From Dolichospermum sp. DET69 (GTDB lineage Bacteria; Cyanobacteriota; Cyanobacteriia; Cyanobacteriales; Nostocaceae): 64,000 nt of DNA. The stretch lies in NCBI GenBank assembly GCA_017355425.1, contig CP070233.1, positions 1,963,501 through 2,027,500 on the forward strand, written 5' to 3'. Numbering within the stretch: the stretch's first letter is position 1; the number at the start of each line of letters is the position of its first letter. Of the stretch, positions 3,842 to 62,013 are shown one piece after another. The notes beneath the pieces were generated by a model. The model searched no databases. It saw nothing but the letters and a program-made list of their open reading frames with translations, and was not told the origin of the DNA. The position numbers and the translations under genes were made by a program.

Positions 3842-3905
3842 AGGGAATAGGGAATAGGGAACAGGGAATAGGGAACAGGGAATAGGGAACAGGGAATAGG
3901 GAACA
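3842..3905. repeat. Heptanucleotide tandem repeat (GGGAATA/GGGAACA)
   Basis: A run of 7-bp units alternating GGGAATA and GGGAACA begins directly against the start codon of the minus-strand GTPase gene. This is the STRR class of repeat known in heterocystous cyanobacteria. It occupies the place of the gene's leader, so it may be part of its 5' UTR. Confidence 0.85.
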
Positions 3906-3936
3906 GAAAAATGTTCTTTATTCTTAAATATTGTAC

Positions 3937-6918: not shown

Positions 6919-7435
6919 AAGTTTGTCAGTGGTCAGTGGTCAGTGGTCAGTTGTTAGTGGTAATTATTTCTTTAATTTGCTTTGCTGGCTCTTGGTGAAA
7001 TAATAAATTGTAGTCTACCTTGAGGATAATTCACTAAAAGTTTAGAACCTGCTGCTTATGAGCGGGTAGTCAAATTCCTGCGTGTTGTACCGATGCCCGA
7101 TGTTTAATTCAAAGATTAATTCAGAGGGAACAGGGAACGGGCAACAGGGAACAGGAAAAACTCATGTTTAAAAACATGAGATTGAAATAATGACACTGTT
7201 TTTTTTCGGGCTACGCATCTTAAAAAACATCTTTTTTTTAACTGAGCTTTAAACTGGTGCAACTTTTGTTTCTTACCTGTTCCCTGTTCCCTGTTCCCTG
7301 TTCCCTGTTCCCTTCTTTTGTAAATTTTTATCAAGCGGTTTCCTGTCAGATGATTAAAAACTGTATAAGACAAAGCAGGGATCGCCAAAACCATACATTA
7401 AACTGGAGTTTGAATATATTTGAGATTTCCCTCTT
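6919..7435. other. Intergenic region with short tandem repeats, divergent promoters of livM and pgi
   Basis: No supportable gene. It holds GTCAGTG heptamers (6928-6955), a mixed GGGAACA-type run (7128-7155) and its complement GTTCCCT (about 7277-7313). These two runs lie in inverted orientation around a 120-bp spacer. Small ORFs here are translations of the repeats. The remaining AT-rich DNA must contain the promoters of the divergent livM and pgi genes. Confidence 0.6.
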
Positions 7436-12259: not shown

Positions 12260-12286
12260 CTTTAATTTTCCTTCTAAATGTTAATT

Positions 12287-12627
12287 GTCTGAACTTAATT
12301 GTCTGAACTTAATTGTCTGAACTATGATTTACATGATTAATGTGATTTCGATGATTAATTAGTCTGAACTATGATTTGCATGATTGATGGGATTTCGATG
12401 ATTAATTAGTCTGAACTACAGCGGTTTCCGCTTTTATGAGTTACATCTTAGCCCCCTCATCGCTTGCGGGGAGGGGGTTGGGGGGTGGGGTTCTTGTACC
12501 TCATAACACCAGGAAGTGCTGTATGATTTACATGATTAATGTGATCTCGATGATTAATTGATCGGTTAAAGCAAGCAATTAATCACAGAAATCACCTAAA
12601 TCACCAAAATCACAGTTCAGACGATGT
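12287..12627. repeat. Cluster of GTCTGAAC-type fold-back repeats, ancestral relatives of the 28.5-kb array
   Basis: GTCTGAAC occurs at 12287, 12301, 12315, 12362 and 12409, and GTTCAGAC closes the block at about 12614-12621. Two units share GTCTGAACTATGATTT(A/G)CATGATT and a following TTTCGATGATTAATTAG. The 3' part carries AATCAC-rich sequence ending AATCACAGTTCAGAC, identical to the arm used in the large array at 28557-31157. The block lies just upstream of ftsH. A 103-bp element interrupts the last GTCTGAACTATGATTT unit. Confidence 0.75.
12419..12521. mobile_element. 103-bp MITE inserted at TA
   Basis: The element starts CAGCGGTTTCCGCTTTTATG and ends CATAACACCAGGAAGTGCTG, giving imperfect terminal inverted repeats (CAGC..TTCC....TTATGAG.TACA). 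It is flanked by TA on both sides and splits an otherwise regular GTCTGAAC-TA-TGATTTACATGATTAATGTGAT unit, so the TA is a target duplication. A second 103-bp copy is at 18251-18353. TA duplication points to mobilisation by an IS630/Tc1-type transposase (inference). Confidence 0.85.
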
Positions 12628-24096: not shown

Positions 24097-24165
24097 AATT
24101 TAGAATTTAGAATTTCACCCATTACCCATTACCCATTACCCATTACCCATTACCCATTACCTACT
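24090..24165. repeat. TTAGAAT and CCCATTA heptamer repeats
   Basis: About three TTAGAAT units run out of the end of the collagen-like gene, followed by about six tandem CCCATTA units up to the stop of the next (minus-strand) gene. STRR class. Confidence 0.85.
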
Positions 24166-24742: not shown

Positions 24743-24784
24743 TGTTAAAACTCCAATTTTCGGATATTGTGACTATTTTATATC

Positions 24785-24985
24785 AGGGAACAGGGAACAG
24801 GGAACAGGGAACAGGGAACAGAAAAATTTTCTTCCTTCTTCTTTCTTCCTTCTTCTTTCTTCCTTTTTCTTTCTTCGTGTACTTCGCTCCTTCGTGGTTC
24901 ATTAACTCCTGACTCCTTCTTCCTTCTTCCTTCTTCCTTCTTCCTTCTTCCTGACTCGGTGACTCCTTCTTCCTGACTCCTAACA
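24785..24985. repeat. CAGGGAA and CTTCTTC/CTTCCTT short tandem repeats
   Basis: CAGGGAA units (24785-24818), then CTTCTTTCTTC-type repeats to about 24955, ending with CTGACTCGGTGACTCC. ORFs spanning it are repeat translations and not genes. Confidence 0.8.
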
Positions 24986-27222: not shown

Positions 27223-28551
27223 ATGGCCAATTCTCGTTTACAGTTATTAGTCTTAAGCAATGGTCATGGAGAAGATATTATTGCTGTACGGATTATCCAG
27301 GCTCTACAAAAATTATCTTCTCCACCAGATATTTTTGCTTTACCAATAGTAGGTGAAGGGCGTGCTTATCAAAAAATCAATATTTCGATGATTGGTAAGG
27401 TGCGGAATATGCCTTCCGGTGGGTTTATCTATATGGATGGACGCGAGTTAATGCGCGATGTGGGTGATGGGTTGGTGCAGTTAACCCTTAATCAAATTCA
27501 ATCTATCCGCCGTTGGGTAAGTTCACAAACAAAGTTAGGTAATCAAAAGGCTGTCTTAGCTGTGGGGGATATTGTTCCCTTGCTATTTGCAGCGGTGAGT
27601 GGTGCTAATTATGCCTTTGTGGGTACGGCTAAATCGGAATACTATGTGCGTGATGAAGCGGGACTATTACCGAGAAAATCCAAATCCGCTCGGTGGGAAA
27701 ATTTTTCTGGTTCAATTTACCATCCTTGGGAAAGATGGTTAATGAGTCGTAGTCGTTGTCAGGCTGTGTTTCCTAGAGATGCTCTGACTACGGAAATTCT
27801 CAAAAAATGGCCAATTCCCGCTGTGGATGTGGGAAATCCGATGATGGATGGTTTACAGACAACTTTTACCGCACAACAATTCTATCGTCGTGACGCTGAA
27901 CATCAAGAAGTAATTCGTCCTTTAATTGTGACTCTGTTGCCTGGTTCTCGTGCGCCGGAAGCTTACAATAATTGGGAAATTATGATGATTGCTGTATCAG
28001 CGCTGATGGCTAGTTTACGACAGCCAAATTCTGTATTTGCGACTGCGGGGACGATGATTTTTTTAGGGGCGATCGCTCCTGGTTTAGATTGTAGTATTCT
28101 CTCACAAACTTTACACATTCAAGGTTGGCGACTGTGTGATGAATCCCCTTTACCAATTTCTGACCCCGATAGCTTGACTTTTAAACAAAAAAATGCTTAT
28201 TTTATTTTAACTCAACAAGCCTATAATGAATGCTTACATTTAGGTGATCTCGCGATCGCTATGGCGGGAACAGCAACAGAACAATTCATCGGTTTAGGAA
28301 AACCAGCGATCGCCATTCCTGGTAATGGTCCTCAATATAACCCCGGTTTTGCAGAAGCCCAAAGTCGGCTTTTAGGACTATCCCTGACCTTAGTCAAGCA
28401 ACCATCACAAGTTCTCTCTGCCATCCAATCTCTCTTCAAAAATCCTGACTTTTTACATGAGATTGCTGAAAACGGACTACAGCGCATGGGGCGTGCCGGT
28501 GCAGCACAACGGATTGCAGAATGTCTACAGGAAAGATGGGGAATTGATTGA
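27223..28551 (+). CDS. Lipid-A-disaccharide synthase-related protein (TIGR03492 type)
   Basis: 442-aa protein similar to LpxB-like glycosyltransferases but belonging to the cyanobacterial 'related' group. It starts LLVLSNGHGEDIIAVRIIQAL and contains VTLLPGSRAPEAYNNWEIM and LAIAMAGTATEQFIGLGKPAIAIPGNGPQYNPGFAEAQSRLLG, the nucleotide-sugar-binding end of a GT-B fold. The true function is not established; many cyanobacteria lack canonical lipid A. It follows the permease gene by about 107 bp on the same strand. The 119-bp repeat array begins six bases after its stop. Confidence 0.85.
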   Translation: MANSRLQLLVLSNGHGEDIIAVRIIQALQKLSSPPDIFALPIVGEGRAYQKINISMIGKVRNMPSGGFIYMDGRELMRDVGDGLVQLTLNQIQSIRRWVSSQTKLGNQKAVLAVGDIVPLLFAAVSGANYAFVGTAKSEYYVRDEAGLLPRKSKSARWENFSGSIYHPWERWLMSRSRCQAVFPRDALTTEILKKWPIPAVDVGNPMMDGLQTTFTAQQFYRRDAEHQEVIRPLIVTLLPGSRAPEAYNNWEIMMIAVSALMASLRQPNSVFATAGTMIFLGAIAPGLDCSILSQTLHIQGWRLCDESPLPISDPDSLTFKQKNAYFILTQQAYNECLHLGDLAIAMAGTATEQFIGLGKPAIAIPGNGPQYNPGFAEAQSRLLGLSLTLVKQPSQVLSAIQSLFKNPDFLHEIAENGLQRMGRAGAAQRIAECLQERWGID

Positions 28552-28556
28552 ATCAT

Positions 28557-31157
28557 GTCTGAACTATGATTTTTGTGATTATTTTGATGAAGATGATGAA
28601 GATGATGAATTTGCCCTCAGAATCACAAAAATCACAAAAATCAGACAAATCACAGTTCAGACGATAATTTCTACTGTCTGAACTATGATTTTTGTGATTA
28701 TTTTGATGAAGATGATGGAGATGATGAATTTCCCCTCAGAATCACAAAAATCACAAAAATCAGACAAATCACAGTTCAGATGGCAATTTCTACTGTCTGA
28801 ACTATGATTTTTGTGATTATTTTGATGAAGATGATGGAGATGATGAATTTCCCCTCAGAATCACAAAAATCACAAAAATCAGACAAATCACAGTTCAGAC
28901 GATAATTTCTACTGTCTGAACATTTTTGTGATTATTTTGATGAAGATGATGAAGATGATGAATTTGCCCTCAGAATCACAAAAATCACAAAAATCAGACA
29001 AATCACAGTTCAGACGATAATTTCTACTGTCTGAACTATGATTTTTGTGATTATTTTGATGAAGATGATGGAGATGATGAATTTCCCCTCAGAATCACAA
29101 AAATCACAAAAATCAGACAAATCACAGTTCAGATGGCAATTTCTACTGTCTGAACTATGATTTTTGTGATTATTTTGATGAAGATGATGGAGATGATGAA
29201 TTTCCCCTCAGAATCACAAAAATCACAAAAATCAGACAAATCACAGTTCAGACGATAATTTCTACTGTCTGAACTATGATTTTTGTGATTATTTTGATGA
29301 AGATGATGGAGATGATGAATTTCCCCTCAGAATCACAAAAATCACAAAAATCAGACAAATCACAGTTCAGATGGCAATTTCTACTGTCTGAACTATGATT
29401 TTTGTGATTATTTTGATGAAGATGATGGAGATGATGAATTTCCCCTCAGAATCACAAAAATCACAAAAATCAGACAAATCACAGTTCAGATGGCAATTTC
29501 TACTGTCTGAACTATGATTTTTGTGATTATTTTGATGAAGATGATGAAGATGATGAATTTGCCCTCAGAATCACAAAAATCACAAAAATCAGACAAATCA
29601 CAGTTCAGACGATAATTTCTACTGTCTGAACTATGATTTTTGTGATTATTTTGATGAAGATGATGGAGATGATGAATTTCCCCTCAGAATCACAAAAATC
29701 ACAAAAATCAGACAAATCACAGTTCAGATGGCAATTTCTACTGTCTGAACTATGATTTTTGTGATTATTTTGATGAAGATGATGGAGATGATGAATTTCC
29801 CCTCAGAATCACAAAAATCACAAAAATCAGACAAATCACAGTTCAGATGGCAATTTCTACTGTCTGAACTATGATTTTTGTGATTATTTTGATGAAGATG
29901 ATGAAGATGATGAATTTGCCCTCAGAATCACAAAAATCACAAAAATCAGACAAATCACAGTTCAGACGATAATTTCTACTGTCTGAACTATGATTTTTGT
30001 GATTATTTTGATGAAGATGATGAAGATGATGAATTTGCCCTCAGAATCACAAAAATCACAAAAATCAGACAAATCACAGTTCAGACGATAATTTCTACTG
30101 TCTGAACTATGATTTTTGTGATTATTTTGATGAAGATGATGAAGATGATGAATTTGCCCTCAGAATCACAAAAATCACAAAAATCAGACAAATCACAGTT
30201 CAGACGATAATTTCTACTGTCTGAACTATGATTTTTGTGATTATTTTGATGAAGATGATGGAGATGATGAATTTCCCCTCAGAATCACAAAAATCACAAA
30301 AATCAGACAAATCACAGTTCAGATGGCAATTTCTACTGTCTGAACTATGATTTTTGTGATTATTTTGATGAAGATGATGGAGATGATGAATTTCCCCTCA
30401 GAATCACAAAAATCACAAAAATCAGACAAATCACAGTTCAGACGATAATTTCTACTGTCTGAACTATGATTTTTGTGATTATTTTGATGAAGATGATGGA
30501 GATGATGAATTTCCCCTCAGAATCACAAAAATCACAAAAATCAGACAAATCACAGTTCAGATGGCAATTTCTACTGTCTGAACTATGATTTTTGTGATTA
30601 TTTTGATGAAGATGATGAAGATGATGAATTTGCCCTCAGAATCACAAAAATCACAAAAATCAGACAAATCACAGTTCAGACGATAATTTCTACTGTCTGA
30701 ACTATGATTTTTGTGATTATTTTGATGAAGATGATGAAGATGATGAATTTCCCCTCAGAATCACAAAAATCACAAAAATCAGACAAATCACAGTTCAGAT
30801 GGCAATTTCTACTGTCTGAACTATGATTTTTGTGATTATTTTGATGAAGATGATGGAGATGATGAATTTCCCCTCAGAATCACAAAAATCACAAAAATCA
30901 GACAAATCACAGTTCAGATGGCAATTTCTACTGTCTGAACTATGATTTTTGTGATTATTTTGATGAAGATGATGGAGATGATGAATTTCCCCTCAGAATC
31001 ACAAAAATCACAAAAATCAGACAAATCACAGTTCAGACGATAATTTCTACTGTCTGAACTATGATTTTTGTGATTATTTTGATGAAGATGATGAAGATGA
31101 TGAATTTGCCCTCAAAATCACAAAAATCACAAAAATCAGACAAATCACAGTTCAGAC
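28557..31157. repeat. Array of 22 tandem 119-bp fold-back repeats
   Basis: Units start at 28557, 28676, 28795, 28914, then 29029 and every 119 bp to 31052; the fourth is 115 bp because it lacks TATG. Each unit opens GTCTGAACTATGATTTTTGT, passes through a GATGAAGATGATG-rich middle, and closes AATCACAAAAATCA...AATCACAGTTCAGAC, forming an imperfect 106-nt hairpin. A 13-nt spacer (ATTTCTACT core) follows. GTCTGAACT pairs with AGTTCAGAC, and TGATTTTTGTGATT pairs with AATCACAAAAATCA. The array fills the gap between convergent genes. Its unit length is not a multiple of three and contains stops, so it is not coding. Related single units lie at 12287-12627. Confidence 0.95.
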
Positions 31158-31210
31158 GGTGATTTTCTTCTTCTTCCTCCTCCTGACTCGGTGACTTGGT
31201 GACTCCTTTC

Positions 31211-31933
31211 TTAAACTACTAACCCAGAACGTAAAGCCCGAACTGCTGCTTGGGTACGATCATCAGCACAGAGTTTATTTAAGATATTGCGAACATGAGT
31301 TTTTACCGTGCCTACAGTAATATATAACTTCTCCGCGATTTGTGAATTACTGCAACCAGCCACAATCAAGCCTAAAATTTCCAGTTCCCGGATGGTGAGG
31401 GGGTAAGTTTCTAAAACTTGTTCATATTCTATTTCCAGAGCTTCAATTTTGACAGTTTTTGGCTTATCCGATGATTGATGATCACCGGGGACACCTTGAC
31501 GCATTTTTCGTAATACTATACTAGCGATCGCTGGATCAATCCAAGAGTTACCATTAAAAGTTGCTTGTACAGCTTCAATAAATTTATTAACACTTGTATC
31601 CTTCATATAATAAGAATCTGCCCCGGCCGCAAAAGCTGCCAAAACGACATTTTCTGCATTATTCATGGTCAAAATCAATATTTTTGTCTGTGATTGTCCT
31701 GTTTCCGTCTGATAACGTCTAAATTTGCGCGTCAGTTCAATCCCATCCATATCAGGTAAACCAATATCAATCACAGCCACATCTGGTTTAGTTGTTTCTA
31801 AAAGTTTGAGTCCGAGATTCGCACTAGCAGCCTCACCAACCACTTTAAAACCGCCGCGCAACTGCAATTCAGTTTTCAGTCCCATGCGCGTCAAATCATG
31901 ATCTTCAATTAATAGAATACTAATTTCACTCAT
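31211..31933 (-). CDS. NarL/FixJ-type two-component response regulator
   Basis: A receiver domain (about residues 1-125: LLIEDHDLTRMGL acidic pair, phospho-acceptor in PDVAVIDIGLPDMDG, Thr in ILILTMN, Lys in YYMKD) is joined by a linker to a C-terminal LuxR helix-turn-helix (LTIRELEILGLIVAGCSNSQIAEKLYITVGTVKTHVRNILNKLC). It therefore binds DNA when phosphorylated. The ATG at 31933 (MSEISILLIEDH) is preferred over the one four codons upstream. It is convergent to the repeat array and lies near three other phosphorelay genes, but none of the kinases is on its strand, so its partner is unclear. Confidence 0.92.
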   Translation of the reverse strand: MSEISILLIEDHDLTRMGLKTELQLRGGFKVVGEAASANLGLKLLETTKPDVAVIDIGLPDMDGIELTRKFRRYQTETGQSQTKILILTMNNAENVVLAAFAAGADSYYMKDTSVNKFIEAVQATFNGNSWIDPAIASIVLRKMRQGVPGDHQSSDKPKTVKIEALEIEYEQVLETYPLTIRELEILGLIVAGCSNSQIAEKLYITVGTVKTHVRNILNKLCADDRTQAAVRALRSGLVV

Positions 31934-61914: not shown

Positions 61915-62008
61915 TGACCAATGACCAATGACCAATGACCAATGACCAATGACCAATGACCACTGACCACTGACCAATGACCAATGACCAATGACCAATG
62001 ACCACTGA
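61915..62008. repeat. CAATGAC/CACTGAC heptamer repeat
   Basis: About thirteen tandem 7-bp units, (A)CCAATGA with occasional ACCACTGA variants, between tRNA-Ser and the crtB stop. STRR class; ORFs across it (repeated VIGHWSL) are artefacts. Confidence 0.9.
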
Positions 62009-62013
62009 CCAAG

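Follow-up and report, generated by a model that had tools for sequence, protein, structure and literature searches.

Structure and setting of the array

The window analysed here is a stretch of 64,000 nucleotides of the genome of Dolichospermum sp. DET69 (contig CP070233.1), and it contains a tandem array of fold-back units between the stop codons of two convergent genes, just where the preliminary description of this DNA had placed it. The coordinates of these features, and of a second, smaller cluster of the same repeat family, are collected in Table 1.

Table 1. Repeat clusters and flanking genes, by position in the window
Feature	Position	Strand	Remark
Upstream gene: TIGR03492 lipid-A-disaccharide synthase-related protein, 442 aa	27223..28551	+	Stop 5 nt before array
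22-unit fold-back array: outer GTCTGAACT...AGTTCAGAC, inner TGATNNNNN / NNNNNATCA phrases, 13-nt spacer	28556..31165		
Array unit 1 minus spacer: hairpin from GTCTGAAC to GTTCAGAC	28557..28661		
Convergent gene: response regulator, LuxR-type (GerE) domain, 244 aa	31211..31945	-	Stop ~52 nt after last arm
Smaller cluster of this repeat family: GTCTGAAC left end ×5 (47-bp + 14-bp tandem units), AGTTCAGAC right end ×1	12281..12622		

Tandem Repeats Finder (TRF) describes the array with a period of 119, 22.0 copies, 97% matches and a score of 4842. When it is cut at TGTCTGAAC it falls into 22 units, 20 of 119 bp and two of 115 bp (unit 4, whose left arm is short by 4 bp, and the final unit, which is cut off), so that the earlier count of 22 and the 119 bp period stand and its single 115 bp unit becomes two. 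The 119 bp units share a pairwise identity of no less than 0.958 (mean 0.979), and their variants are intermixed along the array (AGc GCt GCc AGc GCt GCc GCt GCt ...). Each unit of this type has the pattern of an outer GTCTGAACTR...YAGTTCAGAC pair with inner TGATNNNNN phrases. The 32 nt outer arms are 84% complementary and the inner 14-mer is 100% complementary; two units, each folded on both strands, gave z values of -3.7 to -4.2 and folded better than 200 of 200 dinucleotide shuffles, which bears out the long imperfect hairpin proposed from inspection. The 21 spacers are all 13 nt long, as had been stated, and are of two near-identical versions (GATAATTTCTACT 11 times and GGCAATTTCTACT 10 times) rather than one constant sequence. 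With no differing spacers the array is not CRISPR, and its units are ORF-less; on both points we agree with the preliminary description. An Rfam search across the window returned two tRNAs and no other match, and a distant blastn search of a plasmid collection found no match.

Related arrays in the genome and the genus

A two-unit query has 520 matches in the array's own genome (6.04 Mb in two contigs), and the 16-mer GTCTGAACTNTGATTT has 395 exact matches there versus none in a reversed control. We counted 26 related arrays in 20 regions picked from the two-unit-query matches plus the window, with overlapping rows merged and neighbouring arrays of other period kept separate; their units measure 42–137 bp and their copy numbers range from 2.4 to 55 (TRF). 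Most have the outer GTCTGAACTR...YAGTTCAGAC and inner TGATNNNNN phrases in common, and four (C1:341274-345397), which carry GTCTGAATCAGGAT, form a sister type. In an unchosen 800 kb stretch, GTCTGAA-type ends were found by motif in 12 of 23 arrays, one of them (period 306) possibly by chance, with the sister type dominant; the ends are absent from the remaining 11, which belong to other palindromic families that are tandem too. Tandem repetition is likewise seen at C1:348198-349000, 2582143-2582862, 2689350-2689631 and 2986197-2986527, in palindromic units that fold strongly, are GC-rich and lack GTCTGAA ends.

The preliminary description had raised the prospect that such arrays occur at random sites with no conserved position. 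The outcome is mixed. The siting is strongly intergenic: 28 of the 29 clusters of these ends in the unchosen 800 kb are intergenic, though the DNA there is 78% ORF by a simple caller. As to conserved position, the element at several sites is common to congeners, but the large copy numbers are confined, among readable sites, to this genome. The suggested search of relatives' genomes found the 16-mer in 10 of 16 genomes of the genus (395 copies in this one, 87 in the nearest genome, 3–9 in eight others and none in six), and the pattern for the window and sister types matched 16 of 291 genomes of a phylum sample, all in one family.

A GxxExxY gene linked to the repeats

PF13366 (GxxExxY; PD-(D/E)XK fold) has two matches in this genome, both among such repeats. 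GxxExxY is a named protein family that, to our knowledge, has no assigned function. The first match, a 132 aa ORF at C1:969569-969907 (TIGR04256), is preceded by the left arm GTCTGAACTATGATTTTAGGTGATTTTTTTGATT, and its stop codon falls within unit 1 of an array of 13 copies, the right arms of which terminate in AATCACAGTTCAGAC; the arms and arrays around it have ends and phrases like those of the window's repeats (GTCTGAACTATGATT arm). The second, C1:308811-309149, is surrounded by GTCTGAATCAGGAT-type repeats. The linked protein fits the PD-(D/E)XK fold, with D..ExK and QxxxY conserved, and a GxxExxY relative has a nuclease-like predicted fold; a search of the PDB for sequence relatives found none at E 1. 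We read the units of the window as belonging, as ORF-less (MITE-like) members, to a fold-back family linked to GxxExxY.

Within the genus a TGATT-type GxxExxY gene or remnant occurs in 7 of the 10 repeat-bearing genomes versus 0 of the 6 repeat-free ones (p 0.011, kinship uncorrected). Leaving out the remnant in G009, which has 68% identity, four stops and an unsure type, gives 6/10 versus 0/6 (p 0.034, kinship uncorrected). A wider tally (p 0.008) was set aside, as it lumped in a sister protein clade with another phrase. Three genomes (G010, G013 and G014) have an intact TGATT-type gene and just 3–6 exact copies, so possession of the gene is not sufficient for arrays, whose growth needs something more; copies are present and the TGATT-type gene is absent in G008, G012 and G006. 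Loss of SbcD was considered as a cause of growth and rejected, since SbcD is present in 15 of the 16 genus genomes, this one included.

Inverted phrase arms around GxxExxY in other genomes

PF13366 is present in 96 of 118 genomes of a family sample. Inverted short-phrase arms flank the gene (score ≥30) in 47 of 49 family rows versus 0 of 33 distant flank pairs from the same loci; 50 rows were available, three loci appearing twice, and one had too short a flank. At the loci printed out, one of which (L117) is cut by a contig end, one phrase recurs inverted on either side of the gene, such as GCCAAG, ACGAAGG, CGCAGATG or CACAGAGG.

A scan of named genomes with L085, a cyanobacterial locus, yielded at least 569 relatives, the best 80 of which come from cyanobacteria, Bacteroidota, Leptospiraceae, Desulfobacteraceae, Methylomonas, Ignavibacteria and Dehalococcoidia, among others. 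Among these best 80 of at least 569, 45 reach the inverted-arm score and 35 miss it, versus 0 of 65 control pairs (2 of 65 for another distant window); GTCTGAA-type ends lie on at least one side in 58 and on both sides in 39, versus 6 and 5 of 50, respectively, in the family set, and the repeats beside the gene are tandemly duplicated in 11, including loci of Bacteroidota and Desulfobacteraceae. In many Bacteroidota loci the ends flanking the ORF both face outward, in cyanobacterial AGGAT-type loci (L085, L136-L143) they face inward, and at L124, L127 and L129 a TGATT-type ORF stands between two whole hairpins. The GxxExxY ORF and its arms thus travel together, but because the arm layout varies by locus, any ends given for the coding element are provisional.

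The phrase type can also be placed on the protein tree. Seven phrase labels (109 of 138 rows could be labelled) require 7 changes, where the least possible is 6; shuffled labels require 46.4, and none of 200 shuffles needed as few. A label was present in 79 of 105 near flanks versus 10 of 105 distant flanks of the same loci. Phrase type follows the GxxExxY clade, which shows co-descent of arms and ORF and is no proof of binding. In one genus, L131 (G139) and L132 (G117) have like flanking genes and carry different phrases, CGCAAAGG and CGCCAAG, with both arms changed. We found no description of GxxExxY between phrase arms in the literature searched, which covers few subscription papers.

Growth of the arrays in place

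The spacers carry copies of neighbouring DNA. Next to the GxxExxY gene, the first unit of the array is preceded by 17 nt that are the last codons of the ORF, and 10 of 12 spacers close with these 17 nt. At C1:2313133 the spacer (TGATTAAATT) matches its own left flank at 9 of 10 nt, and in the sister genome G002 the element's left flank (AATAATTTCCCTCTACT) is similar to the window's spacer GATAATTTCTACT; G002 has at this site one whole unit and a second lacking its left end. Among the 14 other congeners, five keep the window's gene pair without the element (G014, G012, G009, G007 and G001), eight have another neighbour and one has a contig end. For 12 element sites (11 arrays and one single copy) we also joined the two flanks, searched for them in eight congeners and read the gaps. 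Where the sites can be read, the gaps in these relatives measure from tens of bases to some hundred and contain zero, one or a few units, versus arrays of 0.7–4 kb here (these counts exclude two G013 gaps with N runs and the G002 arrays at draft contig ends), and the single-copy site C1:2409532 has no expansion. Because the neighbouring array's spacer copies 17 nt of the ORF end and the congeners hold none, one or few units, the array is a local satellite, which grew where it lies through tandem duplication that took adjacent DNA along.

For the GTCTGAACT type, the sites read in congeners included no clean empty one with a target duplication. A fold-back of another type, with 7-bp phrases, splits a TGATT-type GxxExxY ORF in G005 (L326, G005:C1, ~3854801-3854999); it is ~200 bp long and carries CAGGGAA / TTCCCTG heptamers, and any target duplication there is at most 3 bp. 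At one intergenic site, C1:4346552 and its orthologues L289-L295, the inverted phrase repeats differ by congener: TGATT, GTCAGTG/GTCAGTT (G010, G008, G012) or CAGGGAA/CACCTGT (G009).

Comparison with known systems

Several described systems share features with these units. The intervening sequence (IVS) of the Coxiella 23S rRNA gene has complementary ends (a 28-bp stem) around one short ORF, with heptameric repeats just upstream of this S23p ORF, and is called selfish (PMC4990558); the GxxExxY-linked family resembles it as a small element with complementary ends and one short ORF. The IVS, however, lies inside 23S rRNA and its ORF encodes an S23p four-helix bundle (PF05635), whereas the present array lies between two protein genes, its units are intergenic and ORF-less, and the gene of the related repeats is PF13366. 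PF05635 was tried as coding partner and rejected: GTCTGAA ends bracket none of its nine matches in this genome (L075-L083), one of which (L080) has GTCTGAA repeats at a distance. These nine loci have inverted phrases of their own, with a score ≥30 in seven and a clear 7-bp period in five (AGGCAAG, TAGTCAT, TTGGTAA, TTGTCAG and TTGACGG).

MITE-like elements are short, ORF-less and intergenic, with inverted ends, many copies and a rarer coding relative (PMC10969869). The present units are like them in being short, ORF-less and dispersed between genes with inverted ends, and differ in that the linked gene encodes a PD-(D/E)XK-fold protein and not a known transposase, phrases recur every ~9 bp, tandem arrays are large and no target duplication was found. 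REP/BIME and CGTC-tagged REPs are also palindromic, intergenic and sometimes clustered, and CGTC repeats are reported to have no dedicated transposase (PMC3733652). The present units differ from REP/RAYT in that they lack a constant GTAG tag, the linked ORF is not a Y1 (HUH) transposase and the unit is a ~105-bp hairpin with phrase repeats; by eye, no GTAG-like tag is common to the spacers or flanks of 18 listed sites, and the CTAC in the window's spacer is absent from the others. Heptamer phrase repeats (cyanobacterial STRR and TAACTGA repeats) are, like the present ones, short tandem intergenic phrases of cyanobacteria and Bacteroidetes. For TAACTGA a repeat-binding protein is proposed as the mobile part (PMC4679880). 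Their phrases are of 7 rather than ~9 bp and are mostly direct, and the accessible parts of their descriptions give no link to GxxExxY.

Origin of the units and of the array

We regard it as reasonably probable that the unit is an ORF-less, MITE-like member of the fold-back family that brackets GxxExxY, and that the array is a satellite which expanded after such an element had settled between two genes. The arms of this family have GTCTGAAYY termini and short phrases in a repeat of ~9 bp, and the single gene bracketed elsewhere is GxxExxY (~130 aa).

It is unlikely, though less so than the explanations weighed below, that the units are host-generated palindromic satellites unrelated to GxxExxY mobility, with GxxExxY genes picking up or tolerating such repeats. 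Such an origin would accommodate the other palindromic families that are tandem too (the 11 of 23 arrays without GTCTGAA-type ends), and the nuclease is not needed for array growth. PF05635 genes also lie between inverted phrases (above), so bracketing is not special to GxxExxY. Against it, phrase type tracks the GxxExxY tree (7 changes versus 46 when shuffled), and a label is far rarer in distant than in near flanks (10 versus 79 of 105).

We give little credence to the possibility that the array is useful to the host, its hairpins ending transcription or protecting the 3' ends of the convergent genes, or serving RNase III or nucleoid proteins, with more copies selected. Several TGATT arrays at chosen sites do begin no more than 6 bp from a stop codon, 9 of 28 sampled clusters lie in convergent gaps, a slight excess (p 0.03 by intergenic length), and congeners have other inverted phrase repeats at C1:4346552. 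However, a stop codon is found within 12 bp of just 4 of the 28 clusters in the unchosen sample, and we rejected stop-codon targeting, striking in the chosen TGATT arrays, as weak there. The terminator role that had been suggested for the array fares no better: a consensus scan for intrinsic terminators (GC-rich stem and T run) in 28400-31400 found 0 sites versus 1.1 in shuffles. Nor did the recommended covariance check favour a conserved RNA hairpin, since the outer five pairs of the stem have no excess of compensatory changes in 32 distinct elements (the fifth pair has 2 double changes, 2.2 expected), and five congeners keep the gene pair without the element. Still more improbable is an assembly artefact that makes the real copy number much smaller or larger. 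Contigs of the draft sister genome G002 end at several such arrays, so these repeats do trouble assemblers; here, though, the variants are intermixed and not in blocks of identical copies, and the two-contig assembly holds many arrays with distinct units and spacers. Among the roles proposed in the preliminary description, the evidence supports the expanded selfish repeat, and the array is probably a tolerated selfish satellite without host function.

The origin that we favour, an ORF-less relative of a GxxExxY-bracketing element that later expanded, could have unfolded as follows. The GxxExxY protein would recognise its own phrase repeats in the arms and nick or cut there, so that single elements spread, coding or not. 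Both this lineage and its nearest relative have an element between the two genes. The element, with a little of its flank, may then have been duplicated by slippage or by unequal exchange among units, processes that the hairpins would favour, until one or two units had become 22; since the site is bordered by two gene ends, such growth would be tolerated.

More broadly, and as a tentative proposal on which we would put somewhat less than even weight, GxxExxY may be the sole mobility factor of widespread, undescribed tiny mobile elements: a RecB/Cas4-like nuclease that would read the phrases of its own inverted arms, diversify with them as lock and key, and leave ORF-less copies that become satellites filling intergenic space in cyanobacteria, Bacteroidota and other phyla. 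We know of no accepted origin for the intergenic phrase repeats of cyanobacteria and Bacteroidota; joining them with GxxExxY offers a testable explanation for both, in which one small nuclease and the recognition repeats that evolve with it make up a minimal selfish element. The array of 22 units would illustrate how such an element can turn into a satellite in a bacterium, and this genome offers a natural setting for studying the growth of palindromic arrays.

Apart from the fold-back units, the window is rich in 7-bp tandem repeats (61915-62012, 3842-3906, 7276-7313, 24117-24161 and 24784-24821), for example TGACCAA repeated 14 times.
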